Source: a virus
Virus record (IMG/VR): IMGVR_UViG_3300025168_000619
Location: 1-24,987 of that record
DNA: 24,987 bases
Direction: 5' to 3' (one strand)
Shown one piece after another: positions 8,339-20,518 of the stretch. How positions within the stretch are numbered: the stretch's first letter is position 1; each line of letters opens with the position of its first letter. A model generated the notes under the pieces. The model saw only the letters and a program-made list of their open reading frames with translations, had not been told where the DNA came from and did not search any database. A program made the position numbers and the translations under genes.

Positions 8339-8598
8339 TACATTATACCTATCACCATTTCTAAAAAAATTAAAGCTACAGCCCCCACTGTAGATAAAAC
8401 AACCCAATAGATTTTATCTATCTTACCGCCCAAAGCTTCTACGTCTGCGTGTACGTGTGTAATTTTTTCATCTAGATGTTTAAGATGGTTAGTTTTTATA
8501 ATATCAATCTCACGTTCAACACCTTTGATGTGACCGTAGAGAGAAATAATATGTTCTCTATCATCTTCTGGTACTATGCCTTTTACTGTATCTGTCAT
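8338..8598 (-). CDS. Holin / XhlA-like lysis protein
   Basis: This 86-aa protein has a charged, coiled-coil-prone stretch (about residues 25-62, including HLKHLDEKITHVHADVEAL) followed by one strongly hydrophobic C-terminal segment (about 65-86, YWVVLSTVGAVALIF) that should span the membrane. This layout matches XhlA-like and other single-TM phage lysis proteins that work with an endolysin. It sits directly upstream of the endolysin and shares a TAATG junction with it; its own start also shares TAATG with the giant virion gene. GAGGGG precedes the start. The topology is clear, but the sequence alone does not show whether it forms the pore itself or helps another holin. Confidence 0.75.
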   Translation of the reverse strand: MTDTVKGIVPEDDREHIISLYGHIKGVEREIDIIKTNHLKHLDEKITHVHADVEALGGKIDKIYWVVLSTVGAVALIFLEMVIGIM

Positions 8599-11500
8599 TA
8601 AGCAACCCCTCTTTGTCTTTGTCTAATGGCTTGTTCTCCCGGAGATAGTAGTGCAGTTTCTGTTGTTGTCAATCCGGTTGTTTGATCTACGTTTGCAACT
8701 TCTGGTTGAACTACAGGAGCTCCTGTGTCAGGTAGTGGCGCAACTTCTGGTTCTGCAGCTATCTGTGTTGGTGTTTCTACAGTTCTTTGAATTGGCGTTT
8801 GTGATAATTCTTCTCTTTCCATAGCTTTAAATGTTACACCTTTCCATTTACTTTTTATAGCCTCTAACATACCCAAAGGAATGAAGTATTGATAATTAAA
8901 TATTCTTGGATCAAGATCTTTATTGTTTCTTAGTATTTTATCTTTTCTAGACTTAAGACCCTCACGTCCGTATGAAAGTGGTGTAAACCTACCATTCATT
9001 AACATTATAACTTTAGTAGGTATACCCTCTGAACCAGGAGCTATTCTTTTTTTAAGGGCCAGCATAATTTGATTTCTAGTCATTAAACCAGAATCTATGG
9101 CAGCCATGGCTGCTTTATAAAACTCATATTGTTGTCTAAATAATTGTTCATTTTGTTCGTTATATTCTTTGGCTAATTGTTCTGGTCCACGTGATCTAAA
9201 GTTTTTAGTATCAAAATATTTTTTACCTACTTTTGCTTCTCTAAATGCTTGCTGGAAACTAGATATTTTAAAATCTAAACTACCTGGAATATCTATAGTT
9301 ACATTGGATCCACCCATTAGTTTAAATATTTCTGTAACTACTTCTAAGGGTTGTCCAACACCAGACACATCACCACGAGCCGCATGAAATAATTTTCTAC
9401 CAGAGCTAATAAGCCCCGGTTCAATAGTCTTGAAGAAATGTCCCATGGCTCTATCAAATATTTCTGTGTCTGTCATTCCCTTACTCCATATTGACGAACC
9501 TTGTCTTGTTTTACCGGTGTACGCTTCTATAAATGCTTCAGCACCAATTGGTATACCAAAGAAGGTTCCGGTTACAGAATCATACAAAGGACCAACTGCT
9601 TCTAAATATGTTTTAAGTGTGTTTGTTTGTATTTTATCAGGATCAAGTGTTGGACCAAACTTCATTCTAATTTTTAATTCTTTCATTTTGCTTCTAAGAG
9701 CTTTAGCTGCATCACTTGATGGATCAAGTTGAGCGTACTGTTCTTGTAAAGCAACAAGTTCTTTAGAATAATTGTTACGATCAGCAACCTTCATCAATTG
9801 TCTACCACTTGCAACTATAATGTCATACGGATTGTATCTAGAAAAATCAAACACTTTAAATGTTCCATTTTCAACATTTGATACTGGTATTAAGGAGCTG
9901 TACTTCATATAGTCAGGTGCAAAATATTCTTTGTACACATCTACTTGTGTTGGTGTTACGTTTGTAAGTGCATGTCCTAGACCAGACACACCAGCAGTCA
10001 TACCACCAAGAGTGATTGCTTGACCACTTAACATTCTATAACCCATTTCTCTTAAGGCTTGATTGTTTGACGCAATATGTTTCATGGCTATAGAGGAAGT
10101 AGCAAAACCAGTTCTAAGTATTTCGGATGTAAATGATACAAAGTTACCAATAGGCAGCTTTCTTATAGCTTTAATAAATTCAGGCACTTTACTGTATGTT
10201 GGATAAGTCTCTCTAAGTAAATAAGCTGCAGCTTCTTCTATGCCTTCATCCAAAGTTTTCATAGATCCAGTCATAATATTTTTTGGATTAAACTCTATGC
10301 CGTGAAGATTAAAAAATTTGGTAACGTCTTGTACGTTTTTAAAACCACCTTTAAGTTGTGACATGTAGTATTCATGTCCATACCATTTCCACACATTATC
10401 ACCACCTGCATATACTCGTGTGGCTTGTTTGTAGAATGGGGTTTTTTCTACTCGTTCTGCAAGTTTGCCTAATGATTGTAGTTTACCTGCTTTAATATCT
10501 TTTAATATAGCACCAAGCTCTGATGCCACAATATTCTCATCAAGCACACCAAGTTCTATTTTTCTAGAGATTCTTTTTATAAGATCAACTTCGTTTACAG
10601 TTCTACCTGCACCAAAGATATCATCTAGGGTTATCTTAAACGCATCAGTTACAGAAGCAGAACCACCAATGTGCCCAACATGCATAGGAAAGAAACCAGC
10701 ACTACCAAAGTTACGTGTTTGTGTAGCAGGAGAAAAAACTGTTTTACCTGTTTGTACTGCTGCTTTGTACGCAATTGCTGATTGGTAAAAACTATTTTGT
10801 AAAAGGTTATCAAGCATACCACCCGTGCCTTCTACTGTTCTTCTCAACTCATTGGATGCATACAAACCAATTGGACCGCCCTTATCACTAGTCATAAGTT
10901 CTTTCATTTGTCCTAATCCAGGTAGATCACCTATTGTTGTAGGATTGGTTACTCCAGCAGCAAGAGCCTCTGCTCTTGTAGTAAATAAATAACCATTCTC
11001 TAAACCGTGACGAGCAAATTCTTTAAAACTTTTTAAGTTTGCTGTTTGAGATACCAAACTACCTGTTGTTGTCATTACGGATGATCTTAAATTTGTTTCT
11101 TGACCAAGAAGTTTTCTAATGACAGCTGGCAACTCTTCACCTGTATTTAAAAAAAGTTGATCGTCTCTAATTATTTCTCTGTTTATTGTATTTAATGCGT
11201 TGATAGGATCTGTGCCTTCTCTTTTTCCAATTGAAATAATATTGTCTACGTTTTTTCTAGCAAACTCTCTAATTGCTGCTGCCTGTTCTGTTACCGGCAC
11301 ACCTTTAACAGCGGCTTCTAAAAAGTCTTCGTTCTTACTTATGATGTTAACCATAAAATCTGTAGCATCTTCAAATACTTTTGAACTAGGGTTATAATTG
11401 GGGTTGGTAAATGTTGCAAAAGACATACGTATATATTTATCTAAGTTACTTTCAAGAGCGTTTCTAAGACCACTACCTTCTGGTAATTCTTTAAAGTATG

Positions 11501-14500
11501 TTTTTTTAATTGCTGTAAATTCGTCTTTTAATGCTTTTGCTAATTCTTGTAATTCTGGTTCTATCTTAGATAATTTTAAATTACCCCTTAGATATTCGTG
11601 CACTTGATCCATAAGATGTTTTTCACCAGCAGGAGAAGTAAAACCTTTGTTATACCTACCTAAAAAACCACTTGCTAAATCATAAGCTTTTACTTCTATG
11701 GCATCTATATATTTTTCTATTTCTCTTGCTTTTGATTTTATAAATCTTTCTGCGGTACCATCTAAGTTAAAGGAATATGCAATTTGATTACCACTATCTC
11801 GAAACCATTTAAGAAAATTATCTACTCTTTTTAAACCTGCTTCTAAAGGATCCTTAGAAGTTACATCAAACATTCTCCATTTACTTAATTCAGGAAGTTG
11901 TCCGTAGTTACCTTTTAAAGAAGGGATTAAAGCTTTACCCCCAGTTGCAATGGTAGCACCCACACGTGCTAAAATATCTTTACCTAAAAACTTTCCAAAT
12001 GCACCAACACCTCTTGCTACGCTTGGCAACACTACATCATCTTTTGATGCTAAATAAGTTGCAGCTTTTATTGGAACATTTACAGCTTTTAAACCAATAG
12101 AACCTACAGCTAATGCCGGTTTTAATAAAACTTTTTTACCAACCGCACCTAAAACTGGTCCAGCTAATGGAAACAAACCACCAATCATAGCGCCTTCTGC
12201 ACCAAAACGTAATCTGTTTCTAAAGTTTGCAGCTACTCTTTTTTTACCACTCATTCCAGTAGTGTCTTCATATTCACCAACATATTTTGATGTTAATAAA
12301 GGATCATCAAACATTTCAGATATTGTATTGTAAGGACCACCAGCAATAAAATCACCTGCTCCAAAAGAAACCATTCCACTGCCAACTCGTTTTGCAACGT
12401 TTGATACTTGCACACCTAGTTTTGGTAAGCCTTCAAGAGCGTATGTTTTTTGTGTAAATAAATTTACCTTACCCCCGGTTCTCGCTGCAGTAAACTTTCT
12501 AAATCTGTTTATTAGTTTAAAGGCAATACCACCTGGTATACCAAACTCAAGAGCAACAGAAGCTATTTGACCTACAAATGTTTCTGGTTTCGATAAATCA
12601 GCATTTTCATATCTTCTTTTTAATTCATCAGTAAATTCTGTTGGTAGCACAGCATCAGGAATGGTGAATAATAAATCACCTACATTAAAAGCAAAGTTAG
12701 TAACTCCTGTTTCTATAACCCTGTTTACTTCACTTACTGCAGATATGTAGTCTGCTTCTTTTGGTGTAGACTTTGCACCACCTACTCTAAAACTTTCATT
12801 TACAGCATAAAGACCCGGATATTTTTCTTTCATTTCAATGTCATTTTCTTCACCAGATCTAATACCATTGTACAAAAACTCAATTACTTCTAAACCTGCA
12901 ATCTGTGGTCCTCCGGGAGCATTTAGGAAAGAAGATGCTTCTATTAATGGACTTTCTGTTACAAGTTTAGGTAAATCACTAAACTTAAATTTAACTGGTT
13001 GCGGTGGGTTTAATTTTTCTTCAAGAGTTTTTGCTATGTCCTCTCTATATAGTTTTATTCTCTTATAAGCTTCGTCAAAAGATTTCCGAGCATCTACCGA
13101 ATATATGTTTAATATATCTTGTTGTGTATTTTTAACACTTTGATCTATGGCATATTTAGCGGTTCCAGGTATTTCTCCTGCAGCTAGTTTTGCTTGTATG
13201 TTTTCAAAAGTAAAAAAGTCATCTTCCTCTTCTTCTTGAGAACCTTCTTGAAATTTTTTTCTATTATAAGTTTCTGCTTTTTTAGCTCCAAGAGGTACAA
13301 ATTCTCCTCCAACTTTACTTTCTTTAAATATCTTATCAAGTTCTTGTTTAGATACATAAAGAGAAGAATCTATAATTTGTTCTACGTTCATTTTTTCAAA
13401 CACATTGTCGATAGATGTTAGTTTATTTGTTTCTCTGTTTATTGCAGGTGATAATTCAGCACCTATTCTACCGTCAACGGTTTCAAGAGTTAAACCAAAT
13501 TTTTTATAAAAATCACTAATTGCTTTTTTATTTTTTATCACTTCAGGTTGTTTACTATTTTTGTTTTTTTTAAAAAAAGCCTCAACAGCGTTATTAAAAC
13601 CTTGATTAATTCTAGCAGGTGATATTAATATATTACCAGGAAACATTATATTTCTTTTTTCTGATGAGACAGGACTTATATGAAAAATATCAAACAAACC
13701 TTTTTGCGTTAACTCTTTAGCTTTTGTAAGAGTAATAGGATCTTTTGTGTCTATTACTCCATTTACTAGTTTAGCATTTAACAACTCCATAAAAGTTTCA
13801 TTTTCTAAAATTTTTTCTGGGTTTTGTGCATAATATTTATTTGCTATTGTAACTTGTCTATCTTGCCTTCTTACAATTTCTAACTCTTCACTATTTAAAT
13901 ATTTTTCTGCTTGTTTAATTCTTGCTTGTCTTAATTTACCTGATGCACTAGGGTCAGCTATTGGTTTAATTAAATTTTGTTGTCTAATTAAAAAATTATT
14001 AACTCTTTCAACTTGTGCTATTGTGTACGGTGTTGCTTCACCAAAATATTTTTCAGCAAGCATGGTATTTGTACCATTACTTTTTGGGTTATTGTATATA
14101 TCTTTTAGATCAACAATATACTTTTCTTCCATTCCTTTTGGAAAATCTACCTGAGATATTTTTTCATTGCCTTTTCCTGTTTCTAATCTACGTGGTGTTG
14201 GTACAAGAACATCTTCATTAGCTCTTTTTGCTGCATAAGTCTCTTTAGCTCTGTCACTTTGTACCTTACGTAATTCTTCAGGATTTAATTTTGCAAAAGT
14301 ATTTGGGTAGTATTTTCTAACAATATTTTTAATACGTTCTTTACTTCCTGAAGGTAACTCTAAATCGTCTAATAATTTTCTTAAAAGTAAAGGATTACCT
14401 TCTTGTTTAAGATTATCTAAATATTCAAATATTTTTTTATTTTCTGGTTTTGCAATTGTAACACTTATATCTCTAGTTTGATCAGCAACTGCTTTATCAT

Positions 14501-15890
14501 ATGTATTTAAGTTTTTTGTTTTACCAAACTCACTAGCAGCTTTACCAACGTTTTGACTTTCTGCTTTTAATTTCATTTGAGCTTCTAGTTGTCTAGCTTG
14601 TTTTATTGTTAACTTGCCTTCATCTACAGCTTTGTTAATAGCTTTTTTACCTTCAACACTTAACTTACAAGGAGATGAACAAACTACTTTTATCTGATCA
14701 GCATTCTTACCAAATATTTTTGTTACGCCTTTGCCACTTAACCTAACAGCACTTGTTGTTACACCCGAGAAAGTGCCTATAAAAGGAATAAACTCTATAC
14801 CCAGTTGTGCAAACTGTCCTGCTACATAACTAGAACTACCTGGTGCCGCTATATCTGAGTACACGCTTGAGTCTTCTGGGTTTGCAGAAAAACTATTTAT
14901 AGTAACCAACTTTCTACCATCACCTAAATCTACGGTTCTACCTATTAAATCGTATATGGTTGCTTGTGCTAATGCGGGATCATAATTTGGATCTTTTATA
15001 AGTTCCATGTTTCTTTTTAAAGACATTATTCGATCGTACCTGTCAGGATCATACTCTTCCATTAAAGACATAAACTCTGCGTTTTCAGTAGGGTCTTGAT
15101 TAACAGGAATTGCTTTTGAAAATTCTTCATTTATAGGATCAAAAGTAACATTTTGTCCCGATAGTTTTGCGCCTCTATAAACACCTTGTGTTTTCGGATT
15201 ACCTCCAAGAAAACCTGAAGCAAAGGTACCTATCTTTTCTATGAAAGAATTATCTCCTGCTAATTTACTTTCTATATTCTGTCTACCAAGTTCATATTTT
15301 CTAAACTCTGTAACCTTACTACCTATACTTTGAGTATAATTAGTAGAAGGAAAATAATCACCGGATCGATATAAGGCAAGAATTCTAGCAGCGTCTGGTG
15401 TGCCGCCTTTAGTTACAGGATTAAACACTTCACCCGTATCAAAATTATCTGAAACAAGACCTTGATAAACCATTTTTTTAAAAGTATTATAAGAGCTGTT
15501 TTCTTGATTAAAACCAATGTCATCTAGTTCTTGCTGTGGTGATAGATCTTTACCTTCAAATGATAAATAATTAACACCAAGACCTTCTGTTATAGGTTGT
15601 TCTACTCCAAAAAATCTTTCAGCTCTATCTATAAGAGATATGTTTGAAGCATAGTTTTCTGGATAAAAAGGTTGAGTAGCCCCTGGTGCTATAGTTGTAA
15701 ACTCTTGTTGTTTTTTTTTTACATTCTCAGCTATTTGAAGATAATTACTCTCAAAAGCAGGATTCATTATTCCGTTTGTACGATAAGATTGATTTGAAGT
15801 ATCAACAATATTATAACCTGGTTGTTCTTTTTCAAGAGCTTCTTGTTTTAATTGATTTAAAACTTCTGGATCACGGTAAAATATAACCAT
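8598..15890 (-). CDS. Giant internal virion / DNA-ejection-like protein (2430 aa)
   Basis: This gene fills about 7.3 kb, nearly a third of the window. I recognise no enzyme domain with confidence. A glycine- and alanine-rich hydrophobic stretch runs from about 1230 to 1320 (RFGAEGAMIGGLFPLAGPV and following). At about 1908-1965 PIGNFVSFTSEILRTGF and a following R-x-MG-x-R segment resemble a block I recall from very large internal proteins of other marine podoviruses. The C-terminus is rich in P, T, Q and E. Around 860-884 GGEFVPLGAK and RKKFQEGS repeat motifs found in neighbouring virion proteins. The position between the internal virion genes and the lysis cassette suggests an inner-core protein delivered with the DNA. 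The start has only a weak ribosome site (AGGCGG), and one base separates it from the preceding stop. A tape-measure-like role is less likely without long-tail genes. Confidence 0.7.
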   Translation of the reverse strand: MVIFYRDPEVLNQLKQEALEKEQPGYNIVDTSNQSYRTNGIMNPAFESNYLQIAENVKKKQQEFTTIAPGATQPFYPENYASNISLIDRAERFFGVEQPITEGLGVNYLSFEGKDLSPQQELDDIGFNQENSSYNTFKKMVYQGLVSDNFDTGEVFNPVTKGGTPDAARILALYRSGDYFPSTNYTQSIGSKVTEFRKYELGRQNIESKLAGDNSFIEKIGTFASGFLGGNPKTQGVYRGAKLSGQNVTFDPINEEFSKAIPVNQDPTENAEFMSLMEEYDPDRYDRIMSLKRNMELIKDPNYDPALAQATIYDLIGRTVDLGDGRKLVTINSFSANPEDSSVYSDIAAPGSSSYVAGQFAQLGIEFIPFIGTFSGVTTSAVRLSGKGVTKIFGKNADQIKVVCSSPCKLSVEGKKAINKAVDEGKLTIKQARQLEAQMKLKAESQNVGKAASEFGKTKNLNTYDKAVADQTRDISVTIAKPENKKIFEYLDNLKQEGNPLLLRKLLDDLELPSGSKERIKNIVRKYYPNTFAKLNPEELRKVQSDRAKETYAAKRANEDVLVPTPRRLETGKGNEKISQVDFPKGMEEKYIVDLKDIYNNPKSNGTNTMLAEKYFGEATPYTIAQVERVNNFLIRQQNLIKPIADPSASGKLRQARIKQAEKYLNSEELEIVRRQDRQVTIANKYYAQNPEKILENETFMELLNAKLVNGVIDTKDPITLTKAKELTQKGLFDIFHISPVSSEKRNIMFPGNILISPARINQGFNNAVEAFFKKNKNSKQPEVIKNKKAISDFYKKFGLTLETVDGRIGAELSPAINRETNKLTSIDNVFEKMNVEQIIDSSLYVSKQELDKIFKESKVGGEFVPLGAKKAETYNRKKFQEGSQEEEEDDFFTFENIQAKLAAGEIPGTAKYAIDQSVKNTQQDILNIYSVDARKSFDEAYKRIKLYREDIAKTLEEKLNPPQPVKFKFSDLPKLVTESPLIEASSFLNAPGGPQIAGLEVIEFLYNGIRSGEENDIEMKEKYPGLYAVNESFRVGGAKSTPKEADYISAVSEVNRVIETGVTNFAFNVGDLLFTIPDAVLPTEFTDELKRRYENADLSKPETFVGQIASVALEFGIPGGIAFKLINRFRKFTAARTGGKVNLFTQKTYALEGLPKLGVQVSNVAKRVGSGMVSFGAGDFIAGGPYNTISEMFDDPLLTSKYVGEYEDTTGMSGKKRVAANFRNRLRFGAEGAMIGGLFPLAGPVLGAVGKKVLLKPALAVGSIGLKAVNVPIKAATYLASKDDVVLPSVARGVGAFGKFLGKDILARVGATIATGGKALIPSLKGNYGQLPELSKWRMFDVTSKDPLEAGLKRVDNFLKWFRDSGNQIAYSFNLDGTAERFIKSKAREIEKYIDAIEVKAYDLASGFLGRYNKGFTSPAGEKHLMDQVHEYLRGNLKLSKIEPELQELAKALKDEFTAIKKTYFKELPEGSGLRNALESNLDKYIRMSFATFTNPNYNPSSKVFEDATDFMVNIISKNEDFLEAAVKGVPVTEQAAAIREFARKNVDNIISIGKREGTDPINALNTINREIIRDDQLFLNTGEELPAVIRKLLGQETNLRSSVMTTTGSLVSQTANLKSFKEFARHGLENGYLFTTRAEALAAGVTNPTTIGDLPGLGQMKELMTSDKGGPIGLYASNELRRTVEGTGGMLDNLLQNSFYQSAIAYKAAVQTGKTVFSPATQTRNFGSAGFFPMHVGHIGGSASVTDAFKITLDDIFGAGRTVNEVDLIKRISRKIELGVLDENIVASELGAILKDIKAGKLQSLGKLAERVEKTPFYKQATRVYAGGDNVWKWYGHEYYMSQLKGGFKNVQDVTKFFNLHGIEFNPKNIMTGSMKTLDEGIEEAAAYLLRETYPTYSKVPEFIKAIRKLPIGNFVSFTSEILRTGFATSSIAMKHIASNNQALREMGYRMLSGQAITLGGMTAGVSGLGHALTNVTPTQVDVYKEYFAPDYMKYSSLIPVSNVENGTFKVFDFSRYNPYDIIVASGRQLMKVADRNNYSKELVALQEQYAQLDPSSDAAKALRSKMKELKIRMKFGPTLDPDKIQTNTLKTYLEAVGPLYDSVTGTFFGIPIGAEAFIEAYTGKTRQGSSIWSKGMTDTEIFDRAMGHFFKTIEPGLISSGRKLFHAARGDVSGVGQPLEVVTEIFKLMGGSNVTIDIPGSLDFKISSFQQAFREAKVGKKYFDTKNFRSRGPEQLAKEYNEQNEQLFRQQYEFYKAAMAAIDSGLMTRNQIMLALKKRIAPGSEGIPTKVIMLMNGRFTPLSYGREGLKSRKDKILRNNKDLDPRIFNYQYFIPLGMLEAIKSKWKGVTFKAMEREELSQTPIQRTVETPTQIAAEPEVAPLPDTGAPVVQPEVANVDQTTGLTTTETALLSPGEQAIRQRQRGVA
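15779..15807 (-). repeat. 29-base repeat, copy B (start of the giant virion gene)
   Basis: This is the second copy of the repeat at 1989-2017, on the same strand and in the same codon phase. It encodes residues about 29-38 (VDTSNQSYRT) of the 2430-aa protein. Confidence 0.85.
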
Positions 15891-15891
15891 G

Positions 15892-17247
15892 TTAAACCGC
15901 CTGTGTTTGTGCTGGTAATACTAAGTCTGCGTTATATTTTTGATTAAATCTAGAAAGATCATCTGGTGTTTGTATTTGTGCAAAGTCTATTAAGGCTTGT
16001 TCACTGGTAGATAAAAGTCTTACAACTGAATCACTAACTTCTTTTGGTAATCTTGCTCTAAGTTCTTCGTAATTTAGAGGTGAAGTTTGTTGTGGTGCAG
16101 AAGCCTGCATAATTGGTGGTGAACCTGGATCAGGATCGGGACCACTACCTGGTTCAAAAGGTGGGCCTGGTAATGGAATTGCATTTGGCATGTCTGATCC
16201 ACCATTAGCGAAACCAATACGACCACCATCTGCTTTAAACTCTGTTCTTAACGGTTCAGATTTACCGCCTCTAGACCACCAAGATAAATCTTCTTGAGGT
16301 ATGGTATAGGTAGGATCAAATTCTGGTACAAATAACTTGTCTGGTAACAAGTTATCTATTTGAGCTTTAGCCATTATAGCTGCAATTTCGTTTCCAGTTT
16401 TACCTCGATATTCAAGTGGTCTATCTGCATCAGGAAGTAGCGCCATTTGAGAAGCATTTGATTGTAAGATTTCATTTTTAATTAAATCCGCTAATGCTTT
16501 ATCTTTTATAGAATTCTTATCTGTGGTTAGTTGTTCTAATTGATTAATAGCTTGTTGTCGTCTAGTTTTGTCATCATTAGTTCCTTTAGGATTGGAACCT
16601 CTAATTATATTCTGTAGTATTAATGAGTCTTGTAATACAGCCTCAACTTCTAATCTATCTAGTTCTTGTAGTTTAATTTGTGTTTGCAGTTCCCATGCAG
16701 CAATTTTTTCTGACGACGCTATGGTTGCAGAATGTTGTGTCGCTTCTTGGTCTAATTGATCTTGTGTTATTTCTGCTTGTAGTGTTGTTGTTGCGCCTTT
16801 GCCTTGAAGTTCTGCTGACGTAGCTGCTGTTTGTAATAAAGCTTTTCTTCTTTCGCCTTCAATTTCTGCTCTTCTATTAAGTTTTAATTGATTAGACGCA
16901 TCTAATTCAGTTGCAAATTGTCCAAAAGCCGGCGCGTTTCTTTGTGCAAAACGAGCAAAGCCTGAACCAGTATTAGGTGATGCCAATATGTTAGAACCTA
17001 GCCTTGCAAGTGACATGTATTCAGATAAACCAAACCCTGGTTTAGCATAATCAGGCAAGTCTTCTGGAAATAAATCATCAGTGGCTTGACCTAAGTCTGC
17101 TACTATTTGATTTTGTTTTTCTTGATACTCAGTCATGTAGTCTTTTTGTGTGCCTTCATCAAATTTTTCTCTTTCAAAACCAGACACAATACCACTATTG
17201 ATGTCGCCACCCATTTTAAACATAGGTCTTTTAAATATTTTACTCAT
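15892..17247 (-). CDS. Virion-associated protein with GGRIGF motif (451 aa)
   Basis: The protein is probably an internal or structural virion protein; the exact family is not recognised. Residues about 115-290 form a long Q/A/E-rich helical region (TTLQAEITQDQLDQEATQHS, LQTQIKLQELDRLE). A loop with DGGRIGFANGG follows (GGRIGF at 341-346), and then a Pro/Gly linker (PGPPFEPGSGPDPDPGSPP). A small C-terminal helical domain carries YEELRARLPKEVSDSVVRLL. Near the N-terminus FKMGGDINSG and REKFDEGT (R26-D30 core) resemble short modules in the 384-, 705- and 2430-aa proteins. Its start shares TAATG with the 384-aa gene, placing it in a coupled block of internal virion genes. A role in DNA ejection is inference from neighbours. 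Confidence 0.65.
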   Translation of the reverse strand: MSKIFKRPMFKMGGDINSGIVSGFEREKFDEGTQKDYMTEYQEKQNQIVADLGQATDDLFPEDLPDYAKPGFGLSEYMSLARLGSNILASPNTGSGFARFAQRNAPAFGQFATELDASNQLKLNRRAEIEGERRKALLQTAATSAELQGKGATTTLQAEITQDQLDQEATQHSATIASSEKIAAWELQTQIKLQELDRLEVEAVLQDSLILQNIIRGSNPKGTNDDKTRRQQAINQLEQLTTDKNSIKDKALADLIKNEILQSNASQMALLPDADRPLEYRGKTGNEIAAIMAKAQIDNLLPDKLFVPEFDPTYTIPQEDLSWWSRGGKSEPLRTEFKADGGRIGFANGGSDMPNAIPLPGPPFEPGSGPDPDPGSPPIMQASAPQQTSPLNYEELRARLPKEVSDSVVRLLSTSEQALIDFAQIQTPDDLSRFNQKYNADLVLPAQTQAV

Positions 17248-18401
17248 TATCCTGTACCCAATATTTTTCCTAAGCCACCAAGTAATCCAGCGCCTACACC
17301 GCCCACACCAATAATAGTATCTAGTGGACTAGGTGGTGGATCTACTTGTGTACTAAATACACTCTGTGGTCCAATACCTTGAACTAGCGGCGCAAAGCTT
17401 TGTGCAAAAGCTCCCATTCTTTGTTGTGGATCAAAAATTCTTTCTCTAGCTTGTTGTTCTAGTATTCCTGATTGTGTTTGTTGCAACGCTTGTTGTCCTG
17501 CACCTAAACCCATTAAGTTAGTTGCAACGCCTTGTTGTAATCCTGGAAGAGCTTGAGCTAATGATTGTTGATTAGCCATCTCTGCTTGTCTTGCTGTGTC
17601 TGCTTGTTGAAAACCTTGTTGTAATAAAGTTGATTCTAAACCAGCTAGACCTAAAGCTGTTTCTGCATCATATACTCCTTCTTGTACTCCTTGACGACCA
17701 CCACCAAACGCTCCAGACTTACGAGCTGCATCAGCAATATTAAGTCTTTCTCTTGATCTTTGTTGATTAAAGGATGCTTTAGTTGCATCGATAACTTGTT
17801 GTTGATACGGCGACATAAAAGGTTCTCTTGCAGCAGTAAGGCCTGCTGCCGTAACTTGACCTTGTGGACCAGTTGCTCCTGCTAATCTTTGTGACTCATC
17901 TATAAATGGTTGAAAGGAAGCTACACCACCTGGATTTGAACTTATGCCACTAAGTGTACCTGCTACACCACCAAAAGTTGCTTGACCTAAACCTGCTTGT
18001 GTGAGCTGTTGTTGAATAGCTTGTTTTTGTAATTCATTTTGAGGAGTTACACCACGATATAGATCAGATAAATCTTGCGTAGTAAGAGCATCGGCTGATA
18101 CTGTTTCTAGTTCTGGTATAAATGCTCTAGCTGCTGATTCGATAAAAGGTGCAAATCGAGTTACATCTGTCTGTACCCCAGCTAATGAATTAGGGTCATA
18201 GGCAAAATAATTTTCATCATTAGTACCACCTTGAAATTTTTTTCTTACAACACCACCATTGTTCATGTCATCTCGTAATACTCCAGCATTTCTCATAGCT
18301 TCCATTTGTTCAATTGGTGACATTAATTCAAATTCAACAAATTCAGCAGGTCCTAAGCCTTCAGCAAAACGTTCCACCATATCTCTAAACTCACTACTCA
18401 T
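17247..18401 (-). CDS. DNA-ejection/internal virion-like protein (384 aa)
   Basis: This protein has a layout I recall from internal or ejection proteins of marine short-tailed phages. FMSPYQQQVIDATKASFNQQ (195-214) is followed by a Q/R/A-rich helix, then SGAFGGGRQGVQEG (229-242) and a second long helix ending LLQQGFQQA (259-267). After more Q-rich helix, the C-terminus is a glycine-rich hydrophobic tail (about 363-384). The N-terminal 60 residues carry GGVVRKKFQGGT (49-60), a module shared with the 705-aa protein and partly with the giant protein. GGAGG precedes the start, which shares TAATG with the 705-aa stop. The alternation of helices and glycine hinges suits a protein that is packaged and later crosses the cell envelope; that is inference. 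Confidence 0.65.
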   Translation of the reverse strand: MSSEFRDMVERFAEGLGPAEFVEFELMSPIEQMEAMRNAGVLRDDMNNGGVVRKKFQGGTNDENYFAYDPNSLAGVQTDVTRFAPFIESAARAFIPELETVSADALTTQDLSDLYRGVTPQNELQKQAIQQQLTQAGLGQATFGGVAGTLSGISSNPGGVASFQPFIDESQRLAGATGPQGQVTAAGLTAAREPFMSPYQQQVIDATKASFNQQRSRERLNIADAARKSGAFGGGRQGVQEGVYDAETALGLAGLESTLLQQGFQQADTARQAEMANQQSLAQALPGLQQGVATNLMGLGAGQQALQQTQSGILEQQARERIFDPQQRMGAFAQSFAPLVQGIGPQSVFSTQVDPPPSPLDTIIGVGGVGAGLLGGLGKILGTG

Positions 18402-20518
18402 TATACTGAAGCCTCCATCTCGTTTTGTAGTTTGTATAATACGCGGGCCCCGGCTCTTGCGTCTGGTTGCCCTGTTATTAGTTTACCAATTCCTGCAACT
18501 GCTCTATCATTTAAAACAAATTCGTCTTTTCCAACCATGGCTGGTACATCATCAGCTCTTGGCTTTGTACCAAGCGGTATGAAACCACCACCACGTAAAT
18601 CCATTTGCATGCCAGCTGGCACATCTGGAGAAATAGGATCACCCTCAGCTGTTGTTCTTGTGCCCATTGCATTCTTAGATCTCATCAAACCACCCATATT
18701 CATTGTAGCTCTAACGGTGCCTGCACTCATTACATTTCTCATTTGAATTATAGCTTCTTCTCGTGATATTTGACCTGCTTCAAACATTTTTTGAATTTGC
18801 ATAATTCTAGCTTTTTGGAACATGTCTCGTCCCCCCATCGTTGATGCATTTCCTGGTGTCTTATTAAATGGATTAACCCCTTCATAATCAGGGAAACGCT
18901 CAGGCCCATCACCTGGTTCATATCCGCCTTCAAATGGATCTAATTCTTTTTCTCTATAGCGTTCCATATAGGGATCAGTGCCTCTAGCATGTTTACTTCT
19001 CATAATACCACCTTCAGCCATGCCCATATCACGACCACCACCCATTGACATATTATTTAATCGTTTCATGTAATCTTCAACCAGTGTCATTTTATCCTTT
19101 GTACGTTCTTGTTGTTCTTCCCTTGGTGTAGGTAACATTAAACCAGGCAAACCAGGTGGTAATTCTCTACCCATACCAGGCTGTCCGGGAGGATACATTG
19201 AATTAACTTCTCTGTTAGCAACACTATCAATGTAATCACCAACCTTCATATTATCTTGCATTAGCATTTCGTTACTACCATCTTGAAAACCGATACGACC
19301 ACCTTGCGCCGCGTATACGGTATCATTAGTGACATCTTCACCAAACTTTCTACCTTCCGGTAAATCAGTTGGATCATACTCTTCAATACTATCAATTAAT
19401 TTTGCTCTAAGTAATATTTCAGCTATCTCTTCACTAGAGTAACCACGAATTTGAAAAGACTGATTATAATATTTACGTCTTAGTGTTCTGTTTTGACTTT
19501 GTACTTGATCAGCTCTTAAACCTCTTTGTTCTAAATATCTTCTGTAATCGTCCTCTGCTTTTTCCATAGCTTCATAATACTCCATACCCATTCGAGCTAC
19601 TGCTTCACCACCAGGTAAGGCGGTGGTTTTTAACGCAGCCGAACCAAGGTCTTTTAAACCTCCACCTGAAGACAACACATCTGTTATTGTACCGCCACCA
19701 ACTTGCGTTGGATCTATTGAAAGAAAGTTTTCACTAAACGGATTAAAATCTGCACCTTGGAAAGGATCAACATAAGGTTGAGCCATTGATACAAAATCTC
19801 GACCAAGACCTGCTATGCCTTCCATAGCTGTTAGATCTCTAACCGCTAGTCCCGCATCTTGCACTGCTTTTAAATTGTTAACCGCTTGTGTTGCCCGAGC
19901 AGCTTCAACTGCTGTTAGTGTAGATGTACCTGCGTTAGCAGCATCAAGAGCAGTTTGTCCAGCATCAGCTGCACTCTTAAGTTCTGCCATTTGTTTAGTT
20001 GATACGGCGGCATCGCCAGCACGAATACCTGTGTTACCTAGTTCTTTAAAATTGCCAGGATTAGCAGCATCAGCCCCTGCTAGTCCACCACTTAATGCAG
20101 AGAAAGCAGCTGATAGTGCATCAATATCAAACTCTTCATTTTCATCTGTCGTTAAATAATCTCCAGCAACATCACCTAAAGCAGCTCCGGTAGCGCCTGC
20201 TGCAAGTAACAACAATGGATTACCTGTAAGTAATGCTGCCAACGCAGCTCCCGCTTTACCGCCACCCATTCCACCTAGTTTTCCTGCTAAAAATTGTATC
20301 TCCCTTGGAGTAGCTTTAGATAAAAATTTTCTAGCTGGTGCTGCTATCTCTTCACCTAAAAACTCACCAGCAGGATCTAATATTTCTTCTTCTAAAAACT
20401 CACCAGCAGGATCTAGTATATCGTCATCAATAAAATCAACAACGTCGCCTATTGGATTGGATATCTCGTCTGGTATATACTTGTCTCTTAATCTTCTTAA
20501 TTTGCTTCCAAAACCCAT
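18401..20518 (-). CDS. Virion protein with tandem N-terminal repeats and DDVPAM-type C-terminus (705 aa)
   Basis: The N-terminus has a 12-residue tandem repeat (DPAGEFLEEEIL, DPAGEFLGEEIA, then a diverged copy; residues 36-71, perhaps with an earlier copy at 24-35). A hydrophobic Gly/Ala segment follows (about 77-120), then a long A/D-rich helical region. After residue 400 come GGRIGFQDGS (406-415), GGIMRSKHARGT (503-514) and GGLMRSKNAMGT (609-620). The C-terminal 63 residues (643-705) contain GGGFIPLGTK and RADDVPAMVGKDEFV, a motif I recall at the ends of other phage structural proteins. Stop and start are both TAATG junctions. The membrane-like segment and position suggest a component of the ejection machinery or tail; the exact function is unknown. 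Confidence 0.65.
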   Translation of the reverse strand: MGFGSKLRRLRDKYIPDEISNPIGDVVDFIDDDILDPAGEFLEEEILDPAGEFLGEEIAAPARKFLSKATPREIQFLAGKLGGMGGGKAGAALAALLTGNPLLLLAAGATGAALGDVAGDYLTTDENEEFDIDALSAAFSALSGGLAGADAANPGNFKELGNTGIRAGDAAVSTKQMAELKSAADAGQTALDAANAGTSTLTAVEAARATQAVNNLKAVQDAGLAVRDLTAMEGIAGLGRDFVSMAQPYVDPFQGADFNPFSENFLSIDPTQVGGGTITDVLSSGGGLKDLGSAALKTTALPGGEAVARMGMEYYEAMEKAEDDYRRYLEQRGLRADQVQSQNRTLRRKYYNQSFQIRGYSSEEIAEILLRAKLIDSIEEYDPTDLPEGRKFGEDVTNDTVYAAQGGRIGFQDGSNEMLMQDNMKVGDYIDSVANREVNSMYPPGQPGMGRELPPGLPGLMLPTPREEQQERTKDKMTLVEDYMKRLNNMSMGGGRDMGMAEGGIMRSKHARGTDPYMERYREKELDPFEGGYEPGDGPERFPDYEGVNPFNKTPGNASTMGGRDMFQKARIMQIQKMFEAGQISREEAIIQMRNVMSAGTVRATMNMGGLMRSKNAMGTRTTAEGDPISPDVPAGMQMDLRGGGFIPLGTKPRADDVPAMVGKDEFVLNDRAVAGIGKLITGQPDARAGARVLYKLQNEMEASV
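20306..20413 (-). repeat. 36-base (12-codon) tandem repeat in the 705-aa gene
   Basis: Three adjacent 12-codon units encode DPAGEFLEEEIL, DPAGEFLGEEIA and a diverged third copy. A 23-base stretch beginning at 20357 recurs exactly at 20393, giving a 36-base period. The preceding 12 codons (20414-20449, product GDVVDFIDDDIL) look like an older fourth copy. Confidence 0.8.

Follow-up and report, generated by a model that had tools for sequence, protein, structure and literature searches.

In bacteriophage T4, a capsid-targeting sequence (CTS) of about 10 residues is common to the internal proteins IPII and IPIII and carries GFP into the head (PMC9958956), and in phage SU10 the proteins gp20-24 are present in the virion and are lost on genome release (PMC9509320). 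Here we consider a 24,987-base virus record from IMG/VR (IMGVR_UViG_3300025168_000619; G+C 36.7%), the whole of which is referred to below as the window. Four of its large consecutive genes, encoding proteins of 705, 384, 451, and 2430 amino acids (aa), form a cassette that is conserved in the gene order of relatives. Proteins of this cassette share an 8-residue module, R-x-x-[FY]-x-x-G-[GST], which we tentatively interpret as an assembly or docking tag of ejection-type proteins, a reading whose chances we put a little below even. To our knowledge, outside a few models such as T4 and T7 there is little understanding of how the unrelated ejection proteins of short-tailed phages are chosen and brought into the head.

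The T4 CTS is the strongest precedent for an assembly tag. Like the CTS, the module is a short element common to otherwise different proteins (the 705-, 384-, and 451-aa proteins and portal-adjacent proteins, for which we infer a location in the head), and its N-terminal preference is partly comparable. Unlike the CTS, which is N-terminal, is removed by gp21, and can load foreign proteins, the module also occurs internally, is repeated, and has a different sequence.

The cassette itself is reminiscent of SU10 and phiEco32-type phages in its order of a mid-size protein, a DNA-injection-type protein, a second mid-size protein, and a giant (705-384-451-2430 in the window, gp82-85 in Pelagibacter phage HTVC027P, gp21-24 in SU10). 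The window order is the same in HTVC027P and in phage 023Pt_psg01, and in both the module is found in the 705- and 451-equivalents, although their proteins are distant from those of the window (27-46% identity over parts) and are annotated as hypothetical or putative structural. HTVC027P, which has the window's cassette, possesses an SU10-type portal (PF23899), whereas the window's 24,987 bases exclude the portal. Two further HTVC027P proteins have family matches, gp83 to a DNA ejection protein family and gp75 to one of virion structural proteins. Between SU10 gp21-23 and the three window families no homology was detected: hhalign gave probabilities below 1% for the three pairs, each with a single SU10 sequence.

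An 8-residue module in the cassette proteins

The usual form of the module is GGR[IV]G[FY]xxG[GST], most often [A/K]xGGR[IV]G[FY]xxG[GST], and it unifies the window strings GGRIGFQDGS, GGVVRKKFQGGT, GFEREKFDEGT, RPMFKMGG, and YNRKKFQEGS. Relatives were compared at 80 loci for the 384-aa protein and 9 loci for the 705-aa protein, with cassette families assigned by gene order. Among the non-redundant proteins of these loci, the module occurs 52 times in the 705 family against 3.4 in shuffled sequences, and 93 times against 1.1 in the 451 family, where the universal N-terminal RPMF[RK]xGG is included. Counts are 5 against 1.2 in the 384 family and 1 against 2.5 in the giant proteins. The 377 other open reading frames hold 18 copies against 6.0 when shuffled, and about half of these 18 read as 705-like or neighbouring cassette proteins missed by the gene-order rule. 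When both spacings of the motif were varied, the main peak fell at R-2-[FY]-2-G[GST], with 52 copies in the 705 family (2.9 shuffled) and, once N-terminal copies are set aside, 42 in the 451 family (1.2 shuffled). In the 705 and 451 families of 80 related viral loci, the module exceeds its frequency in shuffled proteins 18- to 35-fold, and the same elements in reverse order are nearly absent from these families (2 and 0, respectively). The codons of the module vary, and it is therefore conserved as protein; a mobile DNA repeat was ruled out because the codons differ between copies.

Module copies are found in at least four proteins of the window (Table 1), not only in the two named in the initial annotation, which was right that a short module is common to different proteins but overlooked the copies at residue 408 of the 705-aa protein, residues 7, 26, and 343 of the 451-aa protein, and residue 877 of the 2430-aa protein. 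The N-terminal copy of the 451-aa protein is present in 51 of 53 non-redundant family members, and its R7, P8, G13, and G14 are invariant in 50 relatives. Residues 5-24 of the 451-aa protein carry the near-invariant signature LxRPMF[RK]xGGxxxxGI[TMV]SG[LFI], which nearly every member of the family possesses. The copy in the 2430-aa protein is either lineage-specific or due to chance, because no copy exists in 30 other non-redundant giants. Just before it lies GGEFVPLGAKKA (residues 861-872, window positions 13285-13340, minus strand, approximate), which resembles GGGFIPLGTKPR at residue 643 of the 705-aa protein; the pair scores 39 against a shuffled mean of 33.1 and beats all 60 shuffles.

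Table 1. Cassette genes, reported 12-mers, and further module copies in the window
Feature	Position	Strand	Remarks
705-aa protein	18401..20518	-	Putative internal virion (ejection) protein, by position
384-aa protein	17247..18401	-	DNA-ejection-protein-like (homologue HTVC027P gp83 matches phrog_4287)
451-aa protein	15892..17247	-	Universal N-terminal LxRPMF[RK]xGGxxxxGI[TV]SG[LF]
2430-aa protein	8598..15890	-	Giant, probably ejection-type; relatives of its C-terminal half are recorded as virion structural proteins in Cellulophaga phages
GGVVRKKFQGGT, 384-aa protein residues 49-60	18222..18257	-	Contains module RKKFQGGT (18222-18245)
GGLMRSKNAMGT, 705-aa protein residues 609-620	18659..18694	-	Degenerate copy, N replacing the aromatic; family-conserved GG site
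GGIMRSKHARGT, 705-aa protein residues 503-514	18977..19012	-	Degenerate lineage-specific copy
RIGFQDGS (in AAQGGRIGFQDGS), 705-aa protein residue 408	19274..19297	-	Close relatives keep AxGGRVGFxxG[SG]
RPMFKMGG, 451-aa protein residue 7	17206..17229	-	N-terminal module; family-wide
REKFDEGT, 451-aa protein residue 26	17149..17172	-	Relatives have SGLDRPGYANGT, SGLDRQNYKNGG, SGFERKNFDKGT and similar
RIGFANGG (in KADGGRIGFANGG), 451-aa protein residue 343	16198..16221	-	Relatives have ADGGR[IA]GYxxGG
RKKFQEGS, 2430-aa protein residue 877	13239..13262	-	Near-identical to RKKFQGGT of the 384-aa protein

The module had initially been described as a 12-residue unit shared by the 384- and 705-aa proteins, with one copy in the former and two in the latter. 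All three 12-mers are located on the minus strand at the reported positions and residues, and the two proteins are otherwise unlike each other. The exact 12-residue pattern does not hold up as the shared unit. The best ungapped 12-residue BLOSUM62 scores between the two proteins are 33-34, compared with a shuffled mean of 30.7 (standard deviation 3.2), 17% of shuffles reach such scores, and the similarity of the 12-mers within the window is not clearly above chance. A scan of IMG/VR with a DNA pattern for GGxMRxKxxxGT found 20 stretches, compared with 5 when the pattern was reversed; most of the 20 lie in unrelated proteins, and few independent copies were seen. The real unit is shorter, and the 12-mers are edge cases of R-x-x-[FY]-x-x-G-[GST], a short linear motif of wider occurrence. 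Both 12-mers of the 705-aa protein are degenerate module copies, because H or N replaces the aromatic residue.

Could the three 12-mers be a coincidence of Gly-rich composition? The shuffling result is compatible with this, as are the missing aromatic at two of the three sites and the confinement of one site to a single lineage. Against it, these very families show strong enrichment of the shorter module within the 12-mers, and the 609 site is conserved in relatives; as an explanation of all three, coincidence is very improbable. It is disfavoured for the 609 site and for RKKFQGGT, and is possible for the 503 site, which is restricted to the window lineage (the window and the near-identical L082) and is gapped or different in other relatives. 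At the 609 site, G609 and G610 are invariant across 51 aligned relatives, near relatives have GG[MIL]xRx[KR]N[AS]MGTR (for example GGMSRQKNAMGTR, GGIPRVRNSMGTR, and GGITRARNAMGTR), and distant relatives have GGLMRTGYQEGG or GGRIGYQEGG; this alignment indicates that the site is real and old. The 384 site is seen only in the window and in L002, L003, and L085, and in these relatives it is at the very N-terminus (MIRKKFQGGT). Approximately 48 N-terminal residues of the window 384-aa protein (window positions 18258-18401, minus strand) are absent from these three closest relatives, whose homologues begin MIRKKFQGG directly past the stop of the 705-like gene.

Carriers of the module in viral and cellular genomes

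The distribution of the module beyond the window was assessed with a homology-free scan of IMG/VR, using a degenerate, codon-restricted DNA pattern for GGR[IM]G[FY]xxG[GST]. At least 120 stretches matched, compared with 4 for the reversed pattern. Among the matches listed, 137 of 146 lie in frames open for 150 or more codons, and 19 of 120 loci hold several module copies. In GTDB genome contigs only 30 of 118 matches lie in long open frames, there are no multiple-copy contigs, and a few good matches look like phage contigs within metagenome bins. In 289 alphaproteobacterial genomes (the class of a Maricaulis bin), and with the starting bin set aside, a broader pattern was found at 21 places and its backward control at about 24; these genomes are at chance level, with no excess over the backward pattern. 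A host origin of the module was therefore rejected on the grounds of this lack of excess and of genome-contig matches that are mainly out of frame. The general module is also absent from T7, lambda, and 50 kb of E. coli. Had unrelated phages and hosts carried it just as often, this would have spoken against a dedicated element; that is not what we find for the shorter module, whereas for the strict 12-mer the case is thin either way.

Clustering in genes for internal virion proteins, initially put forward as a check, is seen for the shorter module, which concentrates in the putative ejection cassette and also in genes of the terminase-portal interval. Among the matches listed, homologues of HTVC027P packaging, portal, or ejection proteins are found in 112 of 120 loci, a count that includes the 705-like carriers themselves, and in none of 24 control loci taken from the reversed and strict scans. 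The 126 carrier proteins among these matches comprise 61 that are 705-like, 12 gp42-like, 6 451-like, 5 gp41-like, 1 384-like, and 41 unclassified. Forty of the 61 705-like carriers listed are encoded directly beside a 384-like gene, the gp41-like and gp42-like carriers are encoded between terminase and portal, and many of the unclassified carriers listed are 1-3 genes from portal or terminase. In HTVC027P, module copies are present in gp41, gp42, gp82 (three copies), and gp84, with a few weaker matches elsewhere. Several of the carriers, unrelated to each other, are most likely proteins packed in the head and ejected into the host by a marine short-tailed phage.

PHROGs and Pfam searches gave nothing significant for the four window proteins, and 83 module carriers had essentially no curated family match in Pfam or NCBIfam. 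The 384-aa protein has a weak profile match to phrog_4287 (E 0.019), and HTVC027P gp83 matches it with E 5.6e-6. The 705-aa protein ends in a conserved C-terminal domain (GGFxPxGxxxxADDVPA...NEFV). The C-terminal region of some 705-like carriers, HTVC027P gp82 among them, is similar to tape-measure C-termini (PHROG 5448 and 23013); these matches, however, are weak (E 2e-5 to 0.005), and the window 705-aa protein has no tape-measure PHROG match at E 0.1.

Several other features of the carriers were seen. In carriers from ten loci (L097, L128, L159, L167, L168, L178, L182, L189, L195, and L209; for L168, residue 535 of L168:293-2476) and at residue 728 of HTVC027P gp42, an internal twin-arginine-like stretch that includes a hydrophobic segment, for example GGMSRRTFLKLMGGLASIPVVGKYFK, comes directly or closely after GGRIGFxxGG. 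The carriers are large portal-adjacent proteins, and the combination lies a long way from their N-terminus; it is absent from the window. The 705-like proteins, such as HTVC027P gp82 and those of L069 and L059, have a recurrent PRQxYxLG[SK][LI]VKKAxRxVKKIxKSPxGKAAL, often near the N-terminus, that overlaps one module copy. The viral contigs L114, L158, and L177 encode small basic proteins (MTKLCPRGKSAAKRKFKV...) with the module near the C-terminus.

Possible roles: assembly tag, hinge, or processing signal

What might explain why the same few residues recur in unrelated proteins of one cassette? AlphaFold2 single-chain models of the 451- and 705-aa proteins, built from the loci, have a mean predicted local distance difference test score (pLDDT) of 65.7 and 55.6, respectively, and the 705-aa model is mostly disordered but has a folded pair of helices at its C-terminus. 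The segments with pLDDT below 50 that contain or border the modules are 12-15, 19-32, and 302-369 in the 451-aa protein, and 390-429 (site 408), 492-515 (site 503), and 602-639 (site 609) in the 705-aa protein. A fold search with the low-confidence 705-aa model gave no meaningful match. The modelled location fits a short linear motif in a disordered chain. Of 91 carriers from the homology-free scan, 31 have a module starting within the first 28 residues, and the module rate is 12.2 per 1000 residues at N-termini compared with 0.6 elsewhere (approximately 20-fold, retrieval sites excluded). The N-terminal module is universal in the 451 family, yet many internal copies exist across carriers. The docking peptide or assembly tag initially envisaged survives in this form, in that N-terminal preference and predicted disordered location fit it; the exact 12-residue pattern as its unit does not.

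Predicted disorder would also suit a passive role for the module as a spacer or hinge, in which a turn rich in Gly, bearing a single Arg and a single aromatic, separates domains threaded through portal and tail and is reused by domain shuffling among the long mosaic proteins of this lineage without recognition of any partner. The copies are in predicted disordered linkers and are freely gained and lost, and when the module is masked most carriers still join one similarity network, as shuffled domains would. However, a spacer needs neither a fixed Arg and aromatic at a fixed spacing nor an N-terminal preference, and the exact spacing peak, the near absence of the reversed motif, and the near-invariant RPMF..GG of the 451 family all argue against a passive role. 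We consider the hinge rather unlikely.

In the reading that we tentatively prefer, the module would be a multivalent assembly or docking tag, located in predicted disordered tails and linkers of the otherwise unrelated ejection-cassette proteins. The tagged proteins would be the 705-, 384-, and 451-aa proteins, in the window lineage the giant, and in relatives also proteins of the terminase-portal interval. Each copy would bind the same surface of a shared virion component, located at the portal vertex or in the inner head, and the tag would gather there the proteins destined for the procapsid and for subsequent ejection. The sequences themselves show the module with its spacing, gene distribution, specificity for viruses, predicted disordered location, and N-terminal preference; a head location of the carriers, a protein partner of the module, and a portal-proximal position of that partner are inferred.

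Several observations weigh against this interpretation. Thirty of 31 giant proteins and most 384-family members lack the module, so that not all ejection proteins need it; some 705-family members retain just the GG at the conserved site; and SU10 gp20-24 are without the module. Clustering of the carriers may partly reflect the use of the module by one viral lineage, whose longest disordered proteins these are, the 120 loci of the IMG/VR scan are those listed among at least 120 matches to codon-restricted patterns, and AlphaFold confidence is low overall.

A proteolytic processing signal, with a maturation protease cutting at or near the G-[GST] step, was also among the roles first suggested. 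Short-motif cleavage of internal head proteins is established for T4 gp21 (PMC9958956). In several relatives an internal twin-arginine-like stretch (GGMSRRTFLKLMGGLASIPVVGK) comes directly after the module, where a cut past GG would turn it into an N-terminal signal, and head-maturation-protease fusions are weakly matched, at the profile level, by the capsid protein of HTVC027P. Nevertheless, the first G may be followed by G, S, or T, cleavage at those copies that lie 6-10 residues into the protein would free only a trivial peptide, and the HTVC027P annotation includes no separate prohead protease. Processing is an unlikely function of the module. Contact with nucleic acid, in which an RGG-like composition would hold internal proteins on the packaged DNA, is quite improbable. 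The Arg, Gly, and aromatic composition is suggestive of such contact, and the carriers include small basic proteins (the CPRGKAAAKRKF family, and those of L114, L158, and L177) and neighbours of portal and terminase. There is, however, usually one Arg per module, the variable positions often hold acidic residues (DEG, EEG, QDG), and RGG clusters are not seen.

The strings GGRIGF, GGRVGF, GGRIGY, GGRVGY, and RPMFRMGG were not mentioned in the literature searched, a search whose scope excluded subscription papers and preprints; the transcriptome paper on HTVC027P contains no virion proteomics. A stronger form of the assembly-tag interpretation, which we regard as doubtful, is a dedicated loading system, in which one receptor surface of the portal vertex or inner head in a large group of marine podoviruses would recognise the tag R-x-x-[FY]-x-x-G-[GST] on five or more mutually unrelated proteins, both ejection proteins and portal-adjacent ones. 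If such a system exists, new cargo proteins would be recruited simply by acquiring the tag. With a tag recognisable from sequence, one could predict ejection proteins even for uncultured marine phages, most of whose genes of this kind are annotated as hypothetical, and the search for the receptor would have a direct starting point.

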